Of a DNA stretch of 14,099 bases, positions 124-12,062 are shown one piece after another. Position numbers and translations under genes: made by a program. How positions within the stretch are numbered: the first letter of the stretch is position 1; every line of letters begins with the position of its first letter. A model generated the notes under the pieces. That model saw only the letters and a program-made list of their open reading frames with translations. It was not told where the DNA came from and searched no databases. The DNA is from Tannerella sp. (lineage in GTDB: Bacteria > Bacteroidota > Bacteroidia > Bacteroidales > Tannerellaceae), in assembly GCA_031289445.1 (NCBI GenBank), contig JAITPL010000209.1, positions 1 through 14,099 on the forward strand. Reading direction: 5' to 3'.

Positions 124-477
124 ATGTTTAAGTCGTTCAGAATTGGTAACAGATTGGAAATTGAGAAGAACGGCGCTTGTTTTCTCAATTCGAGACGCAT
201 AGAGCTGCTTGGGCTTATTCGTGAGCACGGCTCGATTCTCTCTGCATCGAAAGCGCTTAGAATGTCTTATCAACAGGCCTGGTCGATAATTCGTGACATC
301 AATTCGTCGTCGCCCCTGCCTGTCGTCGTAAGGCAACGCGGCGGAGCTAACGGCGGCGGAGCTGTCGTAACCGAGTACGGACAGAACCTGATAAGCCGTT
401 ACGAGTCGCTTCTCTATCGCTTCAACCGGTGCATCGCCGAGATGGACGATGAATTGCAGTCTATTTGTTCGTTTTGA
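124..477 (+). CDS. ModE-type winged helix DNA-binding protein (N-terminal domain only)
   Basis: This is a small (117 aa) transcription regulator resembling the DNA-binding domain of ModE, the molybdate-responsive repressor. The sequence shows an N-terminal strand pair (RLEIEKNGACFL, residues 10-21), then RRIELLGLIREHGSI leading into a helix-turn-helix (about 37-58, with SASKALRMSYQQAWSII). A glycine-rich wing follows (GGANGGGAVVT, 73-83), then a dimerisation-type helix (85-113). The protein ends there: no MOP/TOBE molybdate-binding domain follows, so sensing must work differently from E. coli ModE. The frame is open from an ATG at 46, but I chose the ATG at 124 because homology to the family starts with MFKSFRIGNRLEIEKNG and the upstream residues look like translated leader. 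It lies 55 bp upstream of a five-gene transport operon on the same strand, with a ModE-like operator between them, so it probably regulates that operon. The wHTH family call is firm; the ligand is inferred. Confidence 0.85.
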   Translation: MFKSFRIGNRLEIEKNGACFLNSRRIELLGLIREHGSILSASKALRMSYQQAWSIIRDINSSSPLPVVVRQRGGANGGGAVVTEYGQNLISRYESLLYRFNRCIAEMDDELQSICSF

Positions 478-491
478 TTTTTTTTGAAATG

Positions 492-515
492 CGTTATTCT
501 GAAGTTTTTATAACG
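492..515. promoter_or_regulatory. Candidate ModE operator (CGTTAT-N12-ATAACG)
   Basis: A perfect 6-bp inverted repeat, CGTTAT at 492-497 and ATAACG at 510-515, is separated by 12 bases. It lies in the 55-bp gap between the ModE-like gene and the permease gene and ends 17 bases before the permease ATG. The E. coli modA operator, as I recall it, has the same half-sites and the same 12-base spacing, although the E. coli consensus extends further inward (CGTTATAT..) and that extension is not kept here. A weak Bacteroidetes-type promoter may overlap it (TTTG at 473-476, TATTCTGA at 495-502), which would suit repression. The inverted repeat is seen directly; its role is inferred. Confidence 0.65.
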
Positions 516-532
516 AAAAAGAAACGGTAAAT

Positions 533-1546
533 ATGGATAAAATAAAATATGTACGAAAAAGAGGGATTTTCATCCTGTTGTCGGCGATTTTACCGGCGAC
601 AGTCCTTTTCTCCCTAAGCGTGGGAAGGTATCCGATAGCTGTGGGCGACATCCTTCAATACCTGCTGTCGGGCAAATATACGGACGAAAACGTTCCCGTT
701 CTGATTACCCAGGTCCGCATGCCGCGTATCGTCATGGCTATACTGGCGGGAGGCGCCTTATCCGTATCCGGAGCGGCTTATCAGGGCGTGTTTCGCAACC
801 CGATAGTCAGTCCGGATATATTGGGCGTCAGTTCGGGAGCAGGATTCGGCGCGGCGCTGGCCATTTTGTTTTTCCCCGGACTGGCCGGCCTGCAAATATC
901 GGCGTTTGTGCTGGGTTTGCTTTCCGTCAGCCTGTCGCTGATTATCAGCAAAAGCATGGCGGCTTATCACGACCGGACGCTGATGCTGGTATTGTCGGGC
1001 ATGATTGTAGGCTCGCTTTTCAGCGCTCTTATTTCATTGATGAAGTACATTGCCGACGGCGAATCGAAACTTCCCGAAATCACGTTTTGGCTGATGGGCA
1101 ACCTCTCCGCGGCAAGCATGGTCGAAATAAGGTATATCCTGCCTGTCGTCATCATCGCGCTGATACCGATACTGCTCACTTCGTGGAAGCTGAATATCCT
1201 CTCGTTCGGCGACGAAGAAGCGCGAGCCATGGGATTGAATCCCGACCGTCTGCGCTTCACCGTTATCTGTTGCGCCTCTCTGCTGACTGCGTCCATCGTT
1301 TCCGTAACCGGACTGATAGGCTGGGTGGGATTGATTATTCCCCATTTTGCGCGTTTTGTCGTCGGGCCGAATCACAAGCAGTTATTTCCGGCTTCGTTTC
1401 TGATAGGCAGTTCCTTCATGCTCTGCGTGGACGACATAGCGCGGTCGGCTTTCCCGCTCGAAATACCCTTGGGCATTATCACGTCGGTGATTGGAGCGCC
1501 CCTGTTTTTTATTATAATAAGAATGTCGTCGAAAAAAATATGGTAA
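533..1546 (+). CDS. BtuC/FecCD-family ABC transporter permease
   Basis: This is the inner-membrane permease subunit (337 aa) of a type II ABC importer; two copies normally form the channel and pair with the ATPase and binding protein encoded further down. The sequence has about nine or ten hydrophobic segments. Family signatures are VRMPRIVMAILAGGALSVSG (61-80), YQGVFRNPIVSPDILGVSSGAG (83-104), the cytoplasmic GDEEARAMGLNPDRLR segment (226-241) and GLIGWVGLIIPHFAR (260-274). The length is normal for the family. The family carries iron-siderophores, haem and cobalamin, and also, in the Haemophilus influenzae MolBCA system, molybdate and tungstate, so the sequence alone does not give the substrate. 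The ModE-like regulator and operator just upstream favour molybdate or tungstate. It is the first gene of a tight operon; the methyltransferase gene starts 29 bp after its stop, or overlaps the stop if the earlier ATG at 1540 is used. Confidence 0.92.
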   Translation: MDKIKYVRKRGIFILLSAILPATVLFSLSVGRYPIAVGDILQYLLSGKYTDENVPVLITQVRMPRIVMAILAGGALSVSGAAYQGVFRNPIVSPDILGVSSGAGFGAALAILFFPGLAGLQISAFVLGLLSVSLSLIISKSMAAYHDRTLMLVLSGMIVGSLFSALISLMKYIADGESKLPEITFWLMGNLSAASMVEIRYILPVVIIALIPILLTSWKLNILSFGDEEARAMGLNPDRLRFTVICCASLLTASIVSVTGLIGWVGLIIPHFARFVVGPNHKQLFPASFLIGSSFMLCVDDIARSAFPLEIPLGIITSVIGAPLFFIIIRMSSKKIW

Positions 1547-1575
1547 ATCATTTAACAACAAAAATAAAAGAGATT

Positions 1576-2313
1576 ATGGAAAAGAAGTTCAACAGTTATC
1601 CTGTCCGAATAGTCGGTACAGGACCCGGAGACCCCGATTTACTCACGGTAAGAGCCAAACGGTATATCGAAGAAGCCGATGTTTTGTTTTACGATTGCCT
1701 TCCGGCGGTGCACGTGCTTAAAACCGCGCCGAATGCCGAAGTGATCTATGTGAACAAGCATCCCGAAGAGGGGGAAAAGAAGGAAGACATCCTGAAGATC
1801 GTGCGCACGCATTACGAAGCAGGGAGAAAGGTGGTGCGCCTGAAAGCCGGCGACGCCATGATGTTCAACGGCGGAGACGTGGAAGCCCGCATCCTGAAAG
1901 AATGGGGCATTCCGTTTGAAATCGTGCCCGGCATTACGGCGTCGTGCGCGGCGTCCAACATTTTTGCCGTTCCAACTACGGAAATATACAAAAGCAATGC
2001 GCTTGTCAATGTGATTGCCTACGAGATTCACGATGATTTTGCGCATATCAGGGCTATAGCCGGACTTTTCAAACACGGCACAACCGTCGCGCTATACATG
2101 GCATTCGACAATATCGAAGCCATATTCAGGGTATTCGTGGAAGAAGGCGTAGATGAAAACATTCCGGTTGTAATAGCCGCGATGGTCTCCCTGTCGAACG
2201 AAGACGTAGCCCTTGCCACGATGGATACCGTCATGGACGTCATCAACCGGCGCGAAATGGTTTCTCCCTTCGTGTTTTTTATCGGTAATCATATCGGAGT
2301 ATTAACAAATTAA
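1576..2313 (+). CDS. Divergent SUMT/CobA-like tetrapyrrole methylase
   Basis: This 245-aa protein belongs to the S-adenosylmethionine-dependent tetrapyrrole methylase family, closest in layout to uroporphyrinogen-III C-methyltransferase (SUMT/CobA/CysG C-terminal half). Seen: the N-terminal GTGPGDPDLLT motif (14-24), YD at 39-40, VVRLKAGD (86-93), VPGITASCAAS (118-128) and a C-terminal FVFFIGNHIGVL. Several SUMT hallmarks are altered. YDRLV is YDCLP, the usual GDPFIFGRGGEE is GDAMMFNGGDVE (92-103), and the usual V.GH segment is IAYEIHDD (147-154). It probably binds SAM, but its tetrapyrrole substrate is doubtful. The frame is open far upstream inside the permease gene. I chose the ATG at 1576 because it sits a normal distance from the first motif; the ATG at 1540, overlapping the permease stop, is an alternative. 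It lies between permease and receptor genes, 10 bp before the latter, so it is part of the operon. An assimilatory role in sirohaem or cobalamin synthesis is possible but would not explain this location. Confidence 0.85.
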   Translation: MEKKFNSYPVRIVGTGPGDPDLLTVRAKRYIEEADVLFYDCLPAVHVLKTAPNAEVIYVNKHPEEGEKKEDILKIVRTHYEAGRKVVRLKAGDAMMFNGGDVEARILKEWGIPFEIVPGITASCAASNIFAVPTTEIYKSNALVNVIAYEIHDDFAHIRAIAGLFKHGTTVALYMAFDNIEAIFRVFVEEGVDENIPVVIAAMVSLSNEDVALATMDTVMDVINRREMVSPFVFFIGNHIGVLTN

Positions 2314-2323
2314 TTATATTATA

Positions 2324-4375
2324 ATGAAAGCAAAATCTTTATTTTTAGTTTCAGCGTTTATCTGTTTGCAAATACATGCACAGGAAACGGATAGCATATC
2401 CGGAGTATATTTGCTCGGCGAGGTTTCGGTGTCGGGCAGCAAGGCAGGCAAGTCGATGTCGAACAGGGTGAATGCCGCGCAATTGCGCCTGTTTAACAGG
2501 GACAATGCCGCCGACGCACTCAATCTGCTGCCGGGAATAACAATCACGGAAGCCGGCGCACGCAACGAAGGCCAGATATATCTGCGCGGTTTCAATCTCC
2601 TGCAAACGCCGGTTTTCTACGACGGCATTCCGGTTTATGTGCCCTACGACGGAAATGTGGACATCAACCGTTTTACCACGTTCGACCTGTCGCAGATTTC
2701 CGTATCCAAAGCCCTGACTTCCGTCCTCTACGGGCCTAATACGATGGGCGGAGCTATCAATCTCGTTTCGCGCAAGCCGGCGAAACAGCTGGAAGTATGG
2801 GGACTTTCGGGCATGAAACTGAGCAGGGAAGGCTTCAGCGGTTACAATACTGCCGTCAGTGTCGGCTCCAAATCGGACAAATTCTACGCGCTCGGAAGTA
2901 TTTCGTATCTCGAAAACAGTTTCGCGACGCTTTCGGGGAAATTCGCGCCGGGCACGAACGAAGACGGCGGCAAAAGGGACAACTCCGAAACAAAGGACTT
3001 TAAATTCAGCGCCAAGGCAGGTTTTACGCCCAACGCGACCGACGAATATTCGCTCAACTTTATTCTTCAGGATGCGCAGAAGGGAATACCTCCCGGAGTA
3101 GAGGGCAACCAGTTCAGAAGCTATCCGGAATACAACAAGAAAAGCCTGTACTACAAATCGAAAAATCTTTTGGGCGAGAGCATAACGATGGATATTACCG
3201 CCTTCTACGACAATTACTATAACATCATGAGCCAGTTCGACGATAACACGTATGGCTTGCAAAACAAGGGAAGTTCGTTCAACAGCGTGTATGACGACAA
3301 GTCGTTGGGAGCTTCGACGAATTTCGCATTCAGCATGATTGAGAACAACTTATTGAAGGTGGCGCTGTATGAAAAATATGATTCGCACAAGGAACATAAC
3401 GCCGGTATTCCGGCCGACGACGCCGCGGGACAAACCGAAAAAACGGGCGAGCCGGTACAGGAATATCTCGACAACACGCTTTCTGCCGGACTGGAAGACG
3501 TTTATACAGTCAACGGCTATCTGGATGTGATTGCGGGCGTCAATTACAGTTACAGAGCCAACAACAAGGCGCAGGAATACGGCACGCATTACGATACCGG
3601 CGAACGGAATGTCCTGTTCGACTTTCCGACAGGCAGCGACGATGCTTTTAACTGGCAGCTGGCAGCGGTCGTCAAACCGGCCTACGGACATGAGATTTCA
3701 CTGTCGGCGTCGCGAAAATCGCGTTTCGCTTCCCAGAAAGACCGTTATTCCAGCCGGTTTGGCTCGGTTCGTCCCAATCCCGACCTCAAATCGGAATTTA
3801 GCTGGATTTTCGACCTCACCTACAAGGGCGAAGTAAAATCCGTCTTTCAGTATGAGGTGTCCGTCTTCCGCAACAATATCGACAATGCCATCTATCAGGT
3901 TACCATTCCCGGAGAATTTCAGGCTGACGGCGTTACGCCACTCTATCAGAACCGGAATGTGGGAAAATCCTTTGCAACAGGCTACGAGGTATCTTTAGGC
4001 GTGAAGCCGGTCAGGGAAATAACCCTGGGCGCTGCATATACATATATATATCGCGAAAACAAAGAGGACAGGAATTTGAAATACGTGGACGTGCCCGCAC
4101 ACAAGGGCATTATCTACGGCAAGTTCGGTCTGCCTGCGTGGAGCGATACTTATTTGCATGTCGATTTGGAAACAAACAGCAAAAGATACTATACCAGCGA
4201 CGGAATGACATTGCCCGGCTATACGCTGCTGAATCTGAAGGTTTTCTCGAAAATATGGAAAGGATTTTCGGCGGAAGCAGGCGTCAGAAACCTTTTGGAC
4301 AAGGATTACAGCCTGTCGTTCAACTATCCGAGAGAAGGCAGGGTTTATTTTATGTCTCTGGTATATGATTTTTAA
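2324..4375 (+). CDS. TonB-dependent outer-membrane receptor
   Basis: This is a 683-aa outer-membrane gated channel that takes up a scarce ligand using energy passed from the inner membrane by TonB-ExbBD. It has a signal peptide (1 to about 19, ending QIHA before QETD) and a short periplasmic N-terminus in which LLGEVSVSG (30-38) may contain the TonB box. A plug domain follows (about 45-150: ALNLLPGITITEAGARNEGQIYLRGF, YDGIPV, LTSVLYGPNTMGGAINLVSRKP). The rest is a roughly 22-strand beta-barrel with a typical C-terminal end (VRNLLDKDYSLSFNYP, then YFMSLVYDF with terminal Phe). It lacks the carboxypeptidase-like N-terminal domain and the SusD partner of polysaccharide receptors, so it belongs with the metal, siderophore or cofactor receptors. 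Translation probably starts at the ATG 10 bp after the methylase stop. Being in one operon with a complete ABC importer, it likely supplies the same ligand; which ligand cannot be read from the sequence. Confidence 0.93.
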   Translation: MKAKSLFLVSAFICLQIHAQETDSISGVYLLGEVSVSGSKAGKSMSNRVNAAQLRLFNRDNAADALNLLPGITITEAGARNEGQIYLRGFNLLQTPVFYDGIPVYVPYDGNVDINRFTTFDLSQISVSKALTSVLYGPNTMGGAINLVSRKPAKQLEVWGLSGMKLSREGFSGYNTAVSVGSKSDKFYALGSISYLENSFATLSGKFAPGTNEDGGKRDNSETKDFKFSAKAGFTPNATDEYSLNFILQDAQKGIPPGVEGNQFRSYPEYNKKSLYYKSKNLLGESITMDITAFYDNYYNIMSQFDDNTYGLQNKGSSFNSVYDDKSLGASTNFAFSMIENNLLKVALYEKYDSHKEHNAGIPADDAAGQTEKTGEPVQEYLDNTLSAGLEDVYTVNGYLDVIAGVNYSYRANNKAQEYGTHYDTGERNVLFDFPTGSDDAFNWQLAAVVKPAYGHEISLSASRKSRFASQKDRYSSRFGSVRPNPDLKSEFSWIFDLTYKGEVKSVFQYEVSVFRNNIDNAIYQVTIPGEFQADGVTPLYQNRNVGKSFATGYEVSLGVKPVREITLGAAYTYIYRENKEDRNLKYVDVPAHKGIIYGKFGLPAWSDTYLHVDLETNSKRYYTSDGMTLPGYTLLNLKVFSKIWKGFSAEAGVRNLLDKDYSLSFNYPREGRVYFMSLVYDF

Positions 4376-4392
4376 TTTAACAGCAAAACAGG

Positions 4393-5445
4393 ATGAAATA
4401 CAAGATAACAGTTATTTTATTTATATCCGTTCTTGCCGGATGCAACTCCAACAAGCGGACTTCCCCGCCAAACCTCCGGACAATAACGGATATGGCGGGA
4501 CGACAGGTCGAAATTCCGATGGAAATAGACTCCATCTTTATCGACCGCCATTCCGTTCAGCTGATTTACGCTTTCGATACGGCGGCGCCTGTAAATACGG
4601 TTTTCCATTATTACGAAACGGAGAAAAAGTACTTAAAGCGCTCTTTTTACGAGAACAAACCGTACGTGCTGGAACGGTCGATAGAGGAAATAACCGTACT
4701 GAAACCGGATATAATCGTTTATTCCATGCCGCTCGCTCCTGAAAATATCGAAGAAGCAGACATCTTGCAGCAAAAGGCGCAAATACCGGTCGTCGTGATA
4801 GATATGGACATCCTGAAATACAAGGAAATTCTGGCATTTACCGGCGAACTGCTGAACAAAAAGGAAAAAGCGGACGAGCTGATCCGGTTTGTGGAAGAAT
4901 ACGTTGACCCGATTTTCGAGAAGGCGAAAACGATTCCTCCGGAAAAGAAAAGAAGCGTATATTATGCCGAAGGAATGAAGGGTTTGAACACCGACCCTTC
5001 AGGCTCCGTGCACAGTCTGCTGATTGATTTGACAGGAGGCGACAATGTGGCCCGCGTGGACGTCTTGCCGATGAAAGGCATGACGAGCGTATCCCTGGAA
5101 CAGATATATACGTGGAATCCGGAACTTATTCTGGTATGGTCGGGTAATTTCGACAATATGGATTCGTACCGCGAAATCAAAACCGCGCCGTCATGGGCAA
5201 ACCTGAAAGCCGTCAGGGAAAACAAGGTATATCAGGTGCCATGGCGACCCTTCGGCTGGATTGACCGCCCGCCGGGCATTAACCGGCTGATTGGCGTCGT
5301 GTGGCTGTCGAACCTTTTGTATCCGGACGTGTATCGTCAGGAAGACTTGCCGGCCGTTACCAAGGAATTTTTCCAAAAATTTTACCACTATGAAATGACG
5401 GACGAGGAAGCGCTTGATTTACTTAATCCGCAACCGGCATTCTGA
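4393..5445 (+). CDS. ABC transporter substrate-binding lipoprotein (BtuF/FepB/MolA-type fold)
   Basis: This is the periplasmic ligand-binding subunit (350 aa) of the importer. It begins with a lipoprotein signal, MKYKITVILFISVLAGC, with the lipobox cysteine at residue 17, so it should be membrane-anchored. The mature part matches the helical-backbone binding proteins (periplasmic_binding_2). Visible features are ITDMAGRQVEIP near the start, EEITVLKPDIIVY, GELLNKKEKADELIRFVEEYV (the long connecting helix), GSVHSLLIDLTGGDNVA, SLEQIYTWNPELILVW and ENKVYQVPWRPFGWIDRPPGINRL. The last segment, with its WIDRPPGINRLIGVVWLSNLLYP run, is a pattern I associate with oxyanion/iron binding proteins annotated generically as 'iron' SBPs; the H. 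influenzae MolA molybdate protein belongs to this fold. It starts 17 bp after the receptor stop and is followed 17 bp later by the ATPase gene. Its metal or oxyanion ligand is inferred from the ModE context only. Confidence 0.9.
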   Translation: MKYKITVILFISVLAGCNSNKRTSPPNLRTITDMAGRQVEIPMEIDSIFIDRHSVQLIYAFDTAAPVNTVFHYYETEKKYLKRSFYENKPYVLERSIEEITVLKPDIIVYSMPLAPENIEEADILQQKAQIPVVVIDMDILKYKEILAFTGELLNKKEKADELIRFVEEYVDPIFEKAKTIPPEKKRSVYYAEGMKGLNTDPSGSVHSLLIDLTGGDNVARVDVLPMKGMTSVSLEQIYTWNPELILVWSGNFDNMDSYREIKTAPSWANLKAVRENKVYQVPWRPFGWIDRPPGINRLIGVVWLSNLLYPDVYRQEDLPAVTKEFFQKFYHYEMTDEEALDLLNPQPAF

Positions 5446-5462
5446 AAACAAATGACTTGTAT

Positions 5463-6248
5463 ATGAAACTTGAGATTAAAAACGCAGTATTGGGGTATCA
5501 CCGGAAGACCGTGCTGAAAAATGTAAACCTCACACTGGAAACCGGACAGACAACTTGCGTAATAGGTAGAAACGGCGCAGGGAAAACGACTTTGTTCAAG
5601 TCGATGCTGGGACTTTTACCTTTGCTTCGGGGCGAGATTCTCCTCGACGGCAAAAGCGTGGATGCGTGGAGCAGGCGTAAATTTGCCCGTCGGGTTGCAT
5701 ATATTCCGCAAGTACGCGCTCTTCCGTTTCCCTATACGGCATTTGACGTCGTGCTTTTCGGACGGACAGCCCATTTAGCCGCGTTCTCCTCGCCGGGCAA
5801 AAAAGACCGCCTTATTGCCGAAGAATGTCTGGACAAATTACATATCGCTCACCTGAAAAACCGCATTTTCACTCAGTTGAGCGGAGGCGAGCAACAGATG
5901 ATAATCGTAGCGCGAGCCTTGGCTCAACAACCGTCCTTTCTGATTATGGACGAGCCTACTTCGGGTTTGGATTTCGGAAACCAGATAAAAATAATCAATC
6001 AGGTAAACGAGCTGAAAAACGATTCCTTAGGCATCCTGATGGCAACCCATTCGCCCGACCATGCTTTTATGTGCGACGCAGGCGTTGTGGTTGTTCACAG
6101 GGAAGAAATCCGGCAACACGAAGACTGCAACCGGATGATAACGGAAGAGATTTTGAAGGAAATATACAGCGTCGATATAAAAATCTGCTCCATCACAGAC
6201 CCGCAATCCGGCTATAACCGAAAAACCTGTATGCCGACTATGGAATGA
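5463..6248 (+). CDS. ABC transporter ATP-binding protein (FecE/BtuD type)
   Basis: This is the cytoplasmic ATPase (261 aa) that drives the importer. All nucleotide-binding motifs are present and intact: Walker A GRNGAGKTT (35-43), Q-loop Gln83 in YIPQV, signature LSGGEQQ (139-145), Walker B FLIMDEP (159-165), D-loop SGLD (167-170) and switch His196 in MATHSPDH. The GDVVLFGR-like stretch FDVVLFGRTAHL (94-105) is typical of the FecE/BtuD/FepC branch that works with FecCD permeases. I chose the ATG at 5463; an in-frame TTG two codons earlier adds nothing. It is the last gene of the operon. The C-terminus extends beyond the core with an NRKTCMPTME tail of no known role. Downstream lies a 61-bp tandem repeat array and then a convergent gene. 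Confidence 0.93.
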   Translation: MKLEIKNAVLGYHRKTVLKNVNLTLETGQTTCVIGRNGAGKTTLFKSMLGLLPLLRGEILLDGKSVDAWSRRKFARRVAYIPQVRALPFPYTAFDVVLFGRTAHLAAFSSPGKKDRLIAEECLDKLHIAHLKNRIFTQLSGGEQQMIIVARALAQQPSFLIMDEPTSGLDFGNQIKIINQVNELKNDSLGILMATHSPDHAFMCDAGVVVVHREEIRQHEDCNRMITEEILKEIYSVDIKICSITDPQSGYNRKTCMPTME

Positions 6249-6258
6249 AATACGGGCG

Positions 6259-6439
6259 TTTGCGAAAATTCCTGTACAACGCGGCACTGTTGCCTGTCGT
6301 CGCGTCCAGAATTTCGAGGTTTGCGGAAACTCCTGTACAACGCGGCGCTGTTGCCTGTCGTTATGTCCAGAATTTCGAGGTTTGCGGAAATTCCTGTATA
6401 AGGGCGCTGTTGCCTGTCGTCGCGTCCAAAACTTCGAGG
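6259..6439. repeat. Three tandem copies of a 61-bp repeat
   Basis: Copies begin at 6259, 6320 and 6381, each opening with TTTGCG(G)AAA.TCCTGTA and closing with TTTCGAGG or CTTCGAGG. The first two are 61 bp and the third 59 bp, with only a few mismatches (for example ACAACGCGGC against ATAAGGGC). A fourth, heavily decayed start (ATGCCGGCGAGTTCGTTTTACAATGGC, in part) seems to run from 6440 into the end of the convergent gene. The array fills the gap between two convergent stop codons. Frames through it are open on both strands because the repeat contains no stop in some frames, but I do not regard those as genes. I see no strong hairpin followed by a T-run. Confidence 0.9.
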
Positions 6440-6456: not shown

Positions 6457-7089
6457 TTACAATGGCTTGTATTCGACGTTCGTGAAGTAAGCCGTTTCAA
6501 TCACATCGTTCTCGTGCGAACAGACATACAGACCAACGTAGCACGAGACCGGGAGATTCAGTTCGATTTCGCCGGTAAACTCCTGCGGATACTTGCCCTT
6601 TGCCGTTTTCATGGCAATCTTGTCGCCCCGGCGTTCCAGATAGATGTAGTCGCCGTCTTTAGGCCCGACGACCTCTTTGGTCGCCTTGCCTGTTTCGGGA
6701 CGATACTGAAGCGAGGTCAGACCGTCGCCATGCACCGCCACATCAGCATACCGCGATTCTCCGGTAAGCGATTCGCGAATCATCACACCCACCTTGCGAT
6801 GCAGATTCACGCCTTTACCCTTGAACGACACGCGGGCGGATAGGGAGAAATTGCCTGTCGCCTTGCGCCATACGTAGAAGAACTCGTCGCTCTCTGCCCA
6901 GACGTTCTGTCCGGCTCCCGAAACAGTATATTTTCCGGCTGTGGCGTCGTATGCTACAGCGCCTTTCAACTTAGGGCTTCCTACATCGCCTGAGCCTTCA
7001 AATATCCCTGCGCCTCTCTTGTCGGCGCTCACAAACATAAACACGAAAATAACGGCGCATACGGCCTTGATTGATAACTTTGATTTCAT
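6457..7089 (-). CDS. Small secreted protein with predicted concanavalin-like (DUF1349-type) domain
   Basis: A 210-aa protein begins with a clear signal peptide (MKSKLSIKAVCAVIFVFMFVSADKRG), so it is exported. The mature part is a single beta-rich domain containing IFEGSGDVGSPKLKGAVAYDA, YTVSGAGQNVWAESDEFFYVWRKATGNFSLSARVSFKG, VGVMIRESL and YIYLERRGDKIAMK. This pattern (a damaged-by-convention 'N(I/V)W...D.F.Y.W....G.F.L.A.V' core with 'K.G.MIR.SL') resembles the DUF1349/concanavalin-like domains that are found alone or next to WD40-like TolB propellers in Bacteroidetes. Here it stands alone. The frame is open to an ATG at 7116, but the ATG at 7089 gives the proper signal peptide. It is the only gene here not obviously linked to its neighbours: it follows ftsW by 143 bp on the same strand and converges on the transport operon. 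Function unknown; glycan or protein binding is a guess. Confidence 0.75.
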   Translation of the reverse strand: MKSKLSIKAVCAVIFVFMFVSADKRGAGIFEGSGDVGSPKLKGAVAYDATAGKYTVSGAGQNVWAESDEFFYVWRKATGNFSLSARVSFKGKGVNLHRKVGVMIRESLTGESRYADVAVHGDGLTSLQYRPETGKATKEVVGPKDGDYIYLERRGDKIAMKTAKGKYPQEFTGEIELNLPVSCYVGLYVCSHENDVIETAYFTNVEYKPL

Positions 7090-7178
7090 AACATTTATTT
7101 TTAATTTTGTAATCATTCCTGCCTTGCAATCTTCAAATCCTCACAATTACGGACTCGGCTATCCCCTAACAGGTGAAA

Positions 7179-8459: not shown

Positions 8460-8543
8460 TTCTTTAACTGCGAAACTAAGTTCTTTAACTGTTAGATGAA
8501 GCTCTTTAACCGCGAGATGAAGTTCTTTAACTGCGAAACTAAG
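8460..8543. repeat. Four tandem copies of a 21-bp repeat
   Basis: Units begin at 8460, 8481, 8502 and 8523, all exactly 21 bp. Each opens with (T/C)TCTTTAAC and ends AAG. The first and fourth are identical; the middle two differ at several bases (GTTAGATGAAG, CGCGAGATGAAG). The array lies in the 209-bp murD-ftsW gap, immediately upstream of ftsW on the - strand, so it probably lies in the ftsW mRNA leader. I see no known regulatory motif in it. Confidence 0.92.
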
Positions 8544-8610
8544 TATGCCCCAAAAGGCAATTACACGAAAAAAAATCGCAAAATCCTTATATGCTTTTTA
8601 TCGCGCAGCT

Positions 8611-10032: not shown

Positions 10033-10602
10033 TTACTCCGATTTTCTTTTAACAGTATGTTTCAGCTTCAAGAGCGCGAGGTTGATTTCGATACTTGTTT
10101 CAGTATTCGTCGTTTTCAAGCCGTCGTCCAAAAGGTCGGAGATGAGTTCACCGCTTTTCTGCATAAGCGATTTCTGTTTCACCTTATCGTCCATGCTATC
10201 ATGCAATTCGTTGATAACGCGCGACAATTCTCTCATTTTCGCAAAGGCTTCGACGATGGCGATGGTGGTTCGGGTGGCAGCCGGACTTTTCAGGATGGTC
10301 GCCAACATGTACAAGCCTTTTTCGGTAAAGGCTTTAGGCAACACTCTCGTTTTTGCCATATTTGCGGTCAAAATTTTTGACCGCAAACCTATAAACTCCT
10401 TATTGTCAATCTCAATAAGATACCCTTGAGGAAACTTATCCGGATTATTTTTCACCGCCTGATTAATCTCCTTGGTCTGCACGCCATAAAGCGCCGCCAC
10501 ATCGCTATCTATAATGACTTGTGTGTCGCGGATAGTGATGATTTTTTCTTCTACTGCATTAAAATTCAGCAAGTTGCTTTTGATACTCTTGTTTTCTTCC
10601 AT
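10033..10602 (-). CDS. ORF6N-domain protein inside the dcw cluster
   Basis: A 189-aa cytoplasmic protein with an ORF6N domain at about residues 18-105 (EEKIITIRDTQVIIDSDVAALYGVQTKEINQAVKNNPDKFPQGY, in part, then TEKGLYMLATIL). The C-terminal half (108-185) is helical and charged, probably a coiled coil (AFAKMRELSRVINELHDSMDD). ORF6N is a presumed DNA-binding domain first described in phage and large-DNA-virus proteins related to KilA-N and Rha, and single-domain versions are scattered through Bacteroidetes chromosomes. Its start lies 29 bp after the mraY stop and its stop 5 bp before murD, so it is inserted in the middle of the cell-wall operon without breaking either gene. A regulatory role, a domesticated phage remnant, or a neutral passenger are all possible. 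No integrase or other phage gene is next to it. Confidence 0.85.
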   Translation of the reverse strand: MEENKSIKSNLLNFNAVEEKIITIRDTQVIIDSDVAALYGVQTKEINQAVKNNPDKFPQGYLIEIDNKEFIGLRSKILTANMAKTRVLPKAFTEKGLYMLATILKSPAATRTTIAIVEAFAKMRELSRVINELHDSMDDKVKQKSLMQKSGELISDLLDDGLKTTNTETSIEINLALLKLKHTVKRKSE

Positions 10603-11929: not shown

Positions 11930-12062
11930 CATAGTCAAACGTAAGGGGTTGCTTCTACCATGGTCAACCGCAAGGGTTGCTTTTACTATGGTCAACTGCA
12001 AGAGTTGCTTCTAACATAGTCAACCGCAAGAGTTGCTTTTACCATGGTCAACCGCAAGAGTT
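11930..12062. repeat. Tandem 28/29-bp repeat, nearly five copies
   Basis: Units begin at 11930, 11959, 11987, 12015 and 12043 (one 29-bp step, then three of 28 bp), the last one being partial. Each opens (C/T)AT(A/G)GTCAA(A/C) and continues with CGCAAGAGTTGCTT or close variants. Two copies carry the palindrome ACCATGGT. There are no unique spacers between units, so this is not a CRISPR array. It lies in the 179-bp murE-mraY gap, in the presumed mraY leader. No promoter or terminator is evident within it. Confidence 0.92.

Follow-up and report, generated by a model that had tools for sequence, protein, structure and literature searches.

Control of molybdenum uptake through a ModE-type operator is described for the ModE-ModABC system (PMC545781), and a second importer, MolBC-A of Haemophilus influenzae (HI1470-1472), is described as moving molybdate with low affinity, with a binding protein, MolA, that binds both molybdate and tungstate (PMC4031551); papers given by PMC number are cited here for the passages covered. 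We compared these systems with an operon at positions 124 to 6248 of a Tannerella sp. contig (JAITPL010000209.1; the whole stretch of 14,099 nucleotides is called the window here). Sequence comparison makes it highly probable that this operon is a two-membrane import route for molybdenum, mainly for the iron-molybdenum (FeMo) cofactor of nitrogenase in the genus and for molybdopterin enzymes elsewhere. Operator control of the ModE type is common to ModE-ModABC and the window (PMC545781), but full ModE has Mop domains, which the window regulator does not, and ModABC has no outer-membrane part. Among solved structures, MolBC-A has the permease nearest to that of the window; it lacks the receptor, the methylase, and the ModE-like gene. 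The single-domain ModE of Desulfovibrio and Desulfotalea resembles the window regulator in consisting of the DNA-binding domain alone, its sensing mechanism being unexplained, whereas the operator there is CGGTCACG-N14-CGTGACCG and the window keeps the core of the Escherichia coli type (PMC545781).

An outer-membrane step for molybdate, as proposed for the window, is part of the T6SS (type VI secretion system)-ModA-IcmP route of Pseudomonas aeruginosa. TonB-dependent uptake serves vitamin B12, nickel, and sugars. It is established as well for iron, zinc, copper, and manganese (PMC8602904). Among the matches listed from the open PubMed Central literature, no TonB-dependent receptor was assigned to molybdenum. 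The initial annotation had called a TonB-driven outer-membrane step for molybdate or tungstate little described as far as known; earlier predictions, for example in regulon databases, may exist. In E. coli, the prrA-modD-yc73-fepC cluster has been filed as "proposed to be involved in iron uptake" (PMC1890555) and, in 2026, as "possibly mediating iron uptake" (PMC12928451). It has a TonB receptor, a MolBC-like importer, a methyltransferase, and a ModE box, as the window does, and differs in carrying modD and a class I methyltransferase and in having no ModE gene within the cluster.

The window is an entire contig of a metagenome-assembled genome that is 61% complete, so that DNA to the left of position 1 is beyond reach. 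All six genes and the operator of the initial annotation were recovered at their positions, in the order regulator, operator, permease, methylase, receptor, lipoprotein, and ATPase, with intergenic gaps in the operon of no more than ~30 bp:

124..477, + strand: single-domain ModE-like regulator, 117 amino acids (aa) (TIGR00637, E 5.2e-23, under the curated cut-off)
492..515, no strand: ModE-like operator CGTTAT-N12-ATAACG, a perfect inverted repeat (pattern scan, shuffles)
533..1546, + strand: FecCD-type permease, MolB-like (PF01032, E 1.2e-87)
1540..2313, + strand: SUMT-like tetrapyrrole methylase, start at about 1540 or 1576 (PF00590, E 3.8e-37)
2324..4375, + strand: TonB-dependent outer-membrane receptor, plug and 22-strand barrel domain (PF07715 and PF00593, over cut-off)
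4393..5445, + strand: periplasmic binding lipoprotein (Peripla_BP_2), MolA-like fold
5463..6248, + strand: ATPase of an ATP-binding cassette (ABC) transporter, TTG start at 5457 also possible (PF00005)

The regulator matches TIGR00637 with 81 bits (E 5.2e-23; curated cut-off, 98.5) and contains the winged-helix DNA-binding domain of the ModE type (residues 18-101 against 1b9m, E 3.6e-13); its nearest solved structures are 2ijl and ModE itself (1b9m/1o7l). As a Pfam search of the protein at E 0.001 gave no match, we take it to be without a molybdate-binding domain, and because it is without Mop domains we file it as ModE-like rather than as ModE. A search of the same genome with PF00126 gave no match, which is uninformative given that ModE here is single-domain, and PF00994 gave one. 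The operator, CGTTATTCTGAAGTTTTTATAACG, begins 41 bp 5' of the permease gene and has no mismatch to CGTTAT-N12-ATAACG. With up to two mismatches allowed, this pattern is expected 0.78 times per window by chance and was found once, mismatch-free, and none of 200 shuffles of the upstream region equaled its match to the 10-position core. Its spacing is that of the core of the E. coli ModE consensus (PMC545781); compared to CGNTATATA-N6-TATATANCG, the core CGNTAT-N12-ATANCG is exact and the inner TATA incomplete, making this a putative site.

The same box recurs in front of nitrogenase genes. We scanned 61 genomes for CGWTAT-N12-ATAWCG, with the reversed pattern as a control, and found five sites and no control match in the genome to which the window belongs (G000). 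One of them, CGTTATGATTTTTTTTGTATAACG (G000:C94:1745), begins 101 bp 5' of nifH in a nifHDKEN-nifB run (L082); the operator is another, and the remaining three lie at C36:3699, C115:329, and C115:7286. A box of the same kind stands 5' of nifH in G003, G004, G024, and G036 and 5' of nifB in G004 and G024, with no box upstream of nifB in G002 and G029, and in G017 the ModE-like gene itself lies directly 5' of nifH, with a one-mismatch site in between. The pattern is found also in members of the genus without the regulator, such as G009, G023, and G034. Among the 37 genomes of the genus, the regulator is present in 9, a nifD-like gene (E < 1e-60, a threshold of our choosing) in 9, and both in 8 (Fisher p 2e-6). 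The discordant genomes, G008 with nif only and G011 with the regulator only, are both ~80% complete. Weaker nifD-like matches in G007, G021, and G028 (1e-38 to 1e-40) and G009 (2e-4) were left uncounted, as was G003, whose nifH start is at a contig end and whose inclusion would place the regulator in 8 of 10 nif genomes; G029 has divergent nif genes (nifH 66%), and G036 has part of a nif cluster. A tree of MurD had 30 rows, namely 28 of the 37 genus genomes (6 had no MurD match, 1 was split, and 2 were not fetched) and two outgroups. On it the label "both" needs 6 changes against a shuffled mean of 7.1 and is thus scattered rather than confined to one clade. This scatter speaks against shared descent as the source of the link between nif and the regulator, though the test on independent pairs does not decide between the two (5/6, p 0.22).

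Linkage of the regulator to the receptor extends through the class. In a sample of 395 genomes of Bacteroidia, with the receptor counted at E 1e-60 and the G129 copy of the regulator as query, we found the receptor in 13, the regulator in 63, and moeA in 183. The regulator is present in 12 of the 13 receptor genomes (p 1.2e-9) and moeA in 58 of the 63 regulator genomes (p 1e-16), while the receptor and moeA alone are weakly associated (10/13, p 0.04). Receptor genomes without moeA are that of the window and G133, both with nif, and G055, a 99% complete genome in which a MoeA_N search gave no match and the gene directly before the receptor encodes nitrate reductase gamma (L104). The initial annotation had proposed searching other genomes for the same gene set, and a ModE-like gene lies within 3 kb of the receptor at 18 of the 22 receptor loci read; the other four are in G017, G048 (where the contig ends), G055, and G133. 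The gene after the receptor was scanned at nine loci. At the five outside the order of the window it carries a molybdopterin-binding domain (PF00174, 30-34 bits; cut-off, 24), and at the four within that order it is NTPase_1 (G055 and G048), DUF364 (G046), or a helicase (G056). Of 25 genomes selected because they have the receptor, the regulator, or nif, a modA model matched 1, compared to 11 of 14 controls, and with so few matches ModABC was rejected as the normal molybdenum route in these genomes. We also looked for the 10-position core CGNTAT-N12-ATANCG, with at most one mismatch, at starts several of which share one genome. It is present in 21 of 35 upstream regions in Bacteroidota, or 21 of 42 after seven further starts gave none, and for each of the 21 no more than 1 of 200 mononucleotide shuffles matched as well. 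A palindromic variant with two mismatches, such as CACTATTC-N8-ACATAGTG, is found in G129, G329, G087, and G125.

Several gene neighborhoods in these genomes deserve separate mention. In G017 (L084:5303-7511), an exact box, CGTTATAAAATAAAAAGAATAACG, lies ~30 bp 5' of a siderophore-type TonB receptor (TIGR01783, E 6e-59), followed by a gene whose product is 27% identical to the window binding protein, and this locus is a candidate second ModE target. Elsewhere in the same genome (L085:7398-9397), the receptor gene is in two frames, either a broken gene or an assembly error. G133 has in one run and on one strand a modE-like gene, genes of 442 and 247 aa, the latter at the modA match, and nifHDKENB (L149:2940-14586). 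A DUF364/DUF4213 gene labeled "putative heavy-metal chelation" adjoins the receptor of G046 (L025:11642-14153), and proteins of ~570-590 aa with a C-terminal NTPase_1 domain are encoded at L091:5954-8501 and L106:2173-3933; the L025, L091, and L106 genes adjoin the receptor in G046 and G048 and stand behind an exact box in G056.

Comparison of the transport proteins points in the same direction for the permease. The initial annotation had asked for a comparison with MolB, and among solved structures MolB (2nq2_A) is nearest, at 251 bits, followed by FhuB at 172; BtuC profiles also appear among the matches. The ATPase has HI1470 (MolC) as its best solved match at 122.4 bits, practically tied with others. 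For the binding lipoprotein, MolA scores above heme and siderophore proteins of known ligand by sequence; it is third by profile, behind two structures to which no ligand is assigned here, and fourth by structure, near YiuA. On sequence scores we rejected a heme, cobalamin, or siderophore assignment, although by structure YiuA comes almost level with MolA. A collection of genome contigs, searched with the binding protein, gave one locus; the nearest locus that carries a name, L015, is in a metagenome-assembled genome of Dysgonamonadaceae. The methylase reaches 166 bits against TIGR01469, and its motif AGDAMMFNGG replaces the canonical GGDPxxFGRG of SUMT (alignment to 2ybq); all 7 of the operon copies that were aligned keep the altered motifs. 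A true SUMT was rejected, as the protein misses the TIGR01469 cut-off (185) and does not keep the canonical motif. Among plasmid records this methylase matched two, both annotated cobA. The box before nifH, the association of the regulator with nif and with the receptor, and the MolB-nearest permease together support the initial assignment of the operon to molybdenum.

To find relatives outside the phylum, we compared the receptor with plasmid records by tblastn, which returned 23 records, some chromosome-sized. Ten of these were read, together with 16 binding-protein loci (13 annotated and 3 not) against 114 records listed. E. coli strains KE48, Nissle 1917, and TOE51 share the order binding protein, permease, ATPase, class I methyltransferase, modD, and receptor between treA and ymgE, and from these flanks and the gene names we take this locus to be the prrA-modD-yc73-fepC cluster. 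Its receptor is 30% identical to that of the window over the full length, its ModD scores 504 bits (cut-off, 179), and its site CGATATATATGTAAATATATAGCG, an exact match to the E. coli consensus given above with none expected by chance, begins 48 bp 5' of the first gene. At least 80% of the region is held in one place by 2094 of 5426 complete E. coli genomes. As there is no ModD among the six window proteins, the window operon is a relative and not a member of this type. Proteus mirabilis has the E. coli gene order and an exact box, and in Shinella PSBB067 an exact box precedes both the binding-protein gene and the receptor gene. Within 6-7.5 kb on each side of the binding protein, modD, glp/moeA, a modA-type gene, or msrP is present at 9 of 14 loci, in Proteus by homology. 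With one mismatch allowed, a box precedes 11 of 19 proteobacterial operon starts, or 13 of 22 with three more tested; 21 regions had been tested and 19 counted (left out: a second L154 region, a modA promoter), and the count includes the near-copies L154/L159 and the L162/L172 neighborhoods. Three unrelated families of methyltransferase recur in these operons: Bacteroidales have a SUMT-like enzyme, E. coli and Proteus one of class I, and four alphaproteobacteria a TrmO-like one. Under N2 fixation, Zymomonas raises ModD and TonB-dependent receptors, which fits a molybdenum role without linking the two (PMC8600466). The passages covered of PMC5343134 contain no ModE regulon, and PMC11658791 and PMC13367063 have no word starting with molybd or tungst.

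From its genes and operator, the operon most likely serves in molybdenum starvation and is otherwise repressed by the ModE-like protein. At low molybdenum, the repressor would leave the operator at 492-515 and the operon would be transcribed. The receptor would then bind a molybdenum compound, either molybdate or a molybdenum complex, at the cell surface and import it with energy supplied through TonB, the lipoprotein would catch it in the periplasm, and the MolBC-like permease and ATPase would carry it to the cytosol. Molybdenum brought in by this path would go chiefly to the FeMo cofactor in the genus and, in other lineages, to molybdopterin enzymes.

A number of observations weigh against such a route. 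The regulator falls short of the curated TIGR00637 cut-off (81 versus 98.5 bits), and neither Pfam nor NCBIfam found a C-terminal Mop (molybdate-binding) domain in its 117 aa. Binding-protein residues invariant in the family (E193, H207, D291, and R292) are not kept in MolA. Within one mismatch, no box was found at 21 of the 42 bacteroidal starts, which include the nifH starts of G002, G029, and G133 and the transport operons of G004, G012, G017, G024, and G133. Only the permease follows the regulator in G004, G012, and G024, genomes in which the receptor family was not found at E 1e-30; G133 has modA in addition. The tree-corrected contrast between nif and the regulator is powerless, with 5 of 6 independent pairs (p 0.22). 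Alphaproteobacterial relatives of the receptor, in Azospirillum, Methylorubrum, and Sphingomonas, have genes for di-heme or cytochrome c peroxidases nearby, and no named molybdenum gene is seen at those loci or at the loci of Bartonella, Paracoccus, Agrobacterium vitis, Paroceanicella, and Rhizobium Q54.

What is imported may be a molybdenum complex, either a molybdophore (for example a catechol chelate) or, in a sulfidic gut, thiomolybdate, with the methylase acting on the ligand once inside. This narrows the explanation we favor without contradicting it, and we hold it to be a real though lesser prospect, because the residues of the binding protein differ from those of MolA and three unrelated methyltransferases recur, a recurrence that a carrier of bare molybdate would leave unaccounted for and which is our main reason for keeping a complex as a candidate. 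Chelates are the usual cargo of FecCD-type importers. The catecholate protein YiuA comes close to a tie with MolA in structural comparison, and an exact box precedes the siderophore-type receptor of G017. E. coli has ModABC anyway, so that a second route for bare molybdate would be less needed there. On the other side, the genes for the methyltransferases may be mere passengers, and next to the operon no genes for making a chelator were seen, though no search aimed at such genes was made. MolBC-A, which among solved structures is nearest to the permease, also transports bare molybdate and needs no chelator (PMC4031551). Somewhat more doubtful is a broader proposal, that these operons form a ModE-controlled "molybdophore" class across phyla. 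In such a class, molybdenum bound to a small organic or thio ligand would enter through a TonB receptor and FecCD-type importer, and a methyltransferase, which can be exchanged among the SUMT-like, class I, and TrmO-like families and is joined in some species by ModD, would modify the ligand in the cytosol to release the metal. The prrA-modD cluster of E. coli would then be a member of this class rather than an iron system.

That the operon imports iron or heme, with ModE merely coupling iron supply to nitrogenase demand, we regard as unlikely. Both annotation and Pfam place the window transporter in families for iron-complex transport, published work lists the relative in E. coli under possible iron uptake (PMC1890555, PMC12928451), and the iron need of nitrogenase is high. 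Nitrogenase demand is not a general reason, however, since regulator and receptor occur together in 10 of 10 moeA-bearing receptor genomes without nifH over the cut-off, and the neighboring modD, glp/moeA, modA, and msrP genes and the scores of heme and siderophore transporters of known ligand, below those of MolB and MolA by sequence, also speak against iron. A system for tungstate rather than molybdate has still less in its favor: MolA binds both oxyanions (PMC4031551), but the partner genes found are those of molybdenum (nif, moeA, nar, msrP, and modD), tungsten enzymes not having been searched for. The least probable reading, a tetrapyrrole or corrinoid (cobalamin precursor) importer, is suggested by the methylase-family gene in 7 of 7 aligned operon copies and by the BtuC profiles among the permease matches and is opposed by the departure of the methylase from the canonical SUMT motif and its score below the curated cut-off, by BtuC and BtuF scores far below MolB and MolA, and by ModE control, which fits no corrinoid.

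If the window operon does import molybdenum, this metal joins the substrates taken up through TonB, and a receptor family of Bacteroidota and Proteobacteria gains a function. The cluster now labeled as possible iron uptake in 2094 of 5426 complete E. coli genomes would become a molybdenum-uptake candidate that can be tested in the probiotic Nissle 1917. Feeding of nitrogenase would be explained in nitrogen-fixing gut Bacteroidales without detected modA, and the puzzle of the recurring methyltransferases would become testable.

The remainder of the window contains features of minor note. A 61-bp tandem repeat in three copies (6258-6439) directly follows the operon, and beside it a 219-aa protein is encoded on the minus strand (6457-7116) with no Pfam or NCBIfam match. 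The cell-wall cluster of the window has further tandem repeats, of 21 bp in four copies (8460-8544) and of 28 bp in four copies (11948-12062), and within its murD-mraY stretch lies a gene with an ORF6N domain, phage antirepressor-like, on the minus strand (10033-10602).

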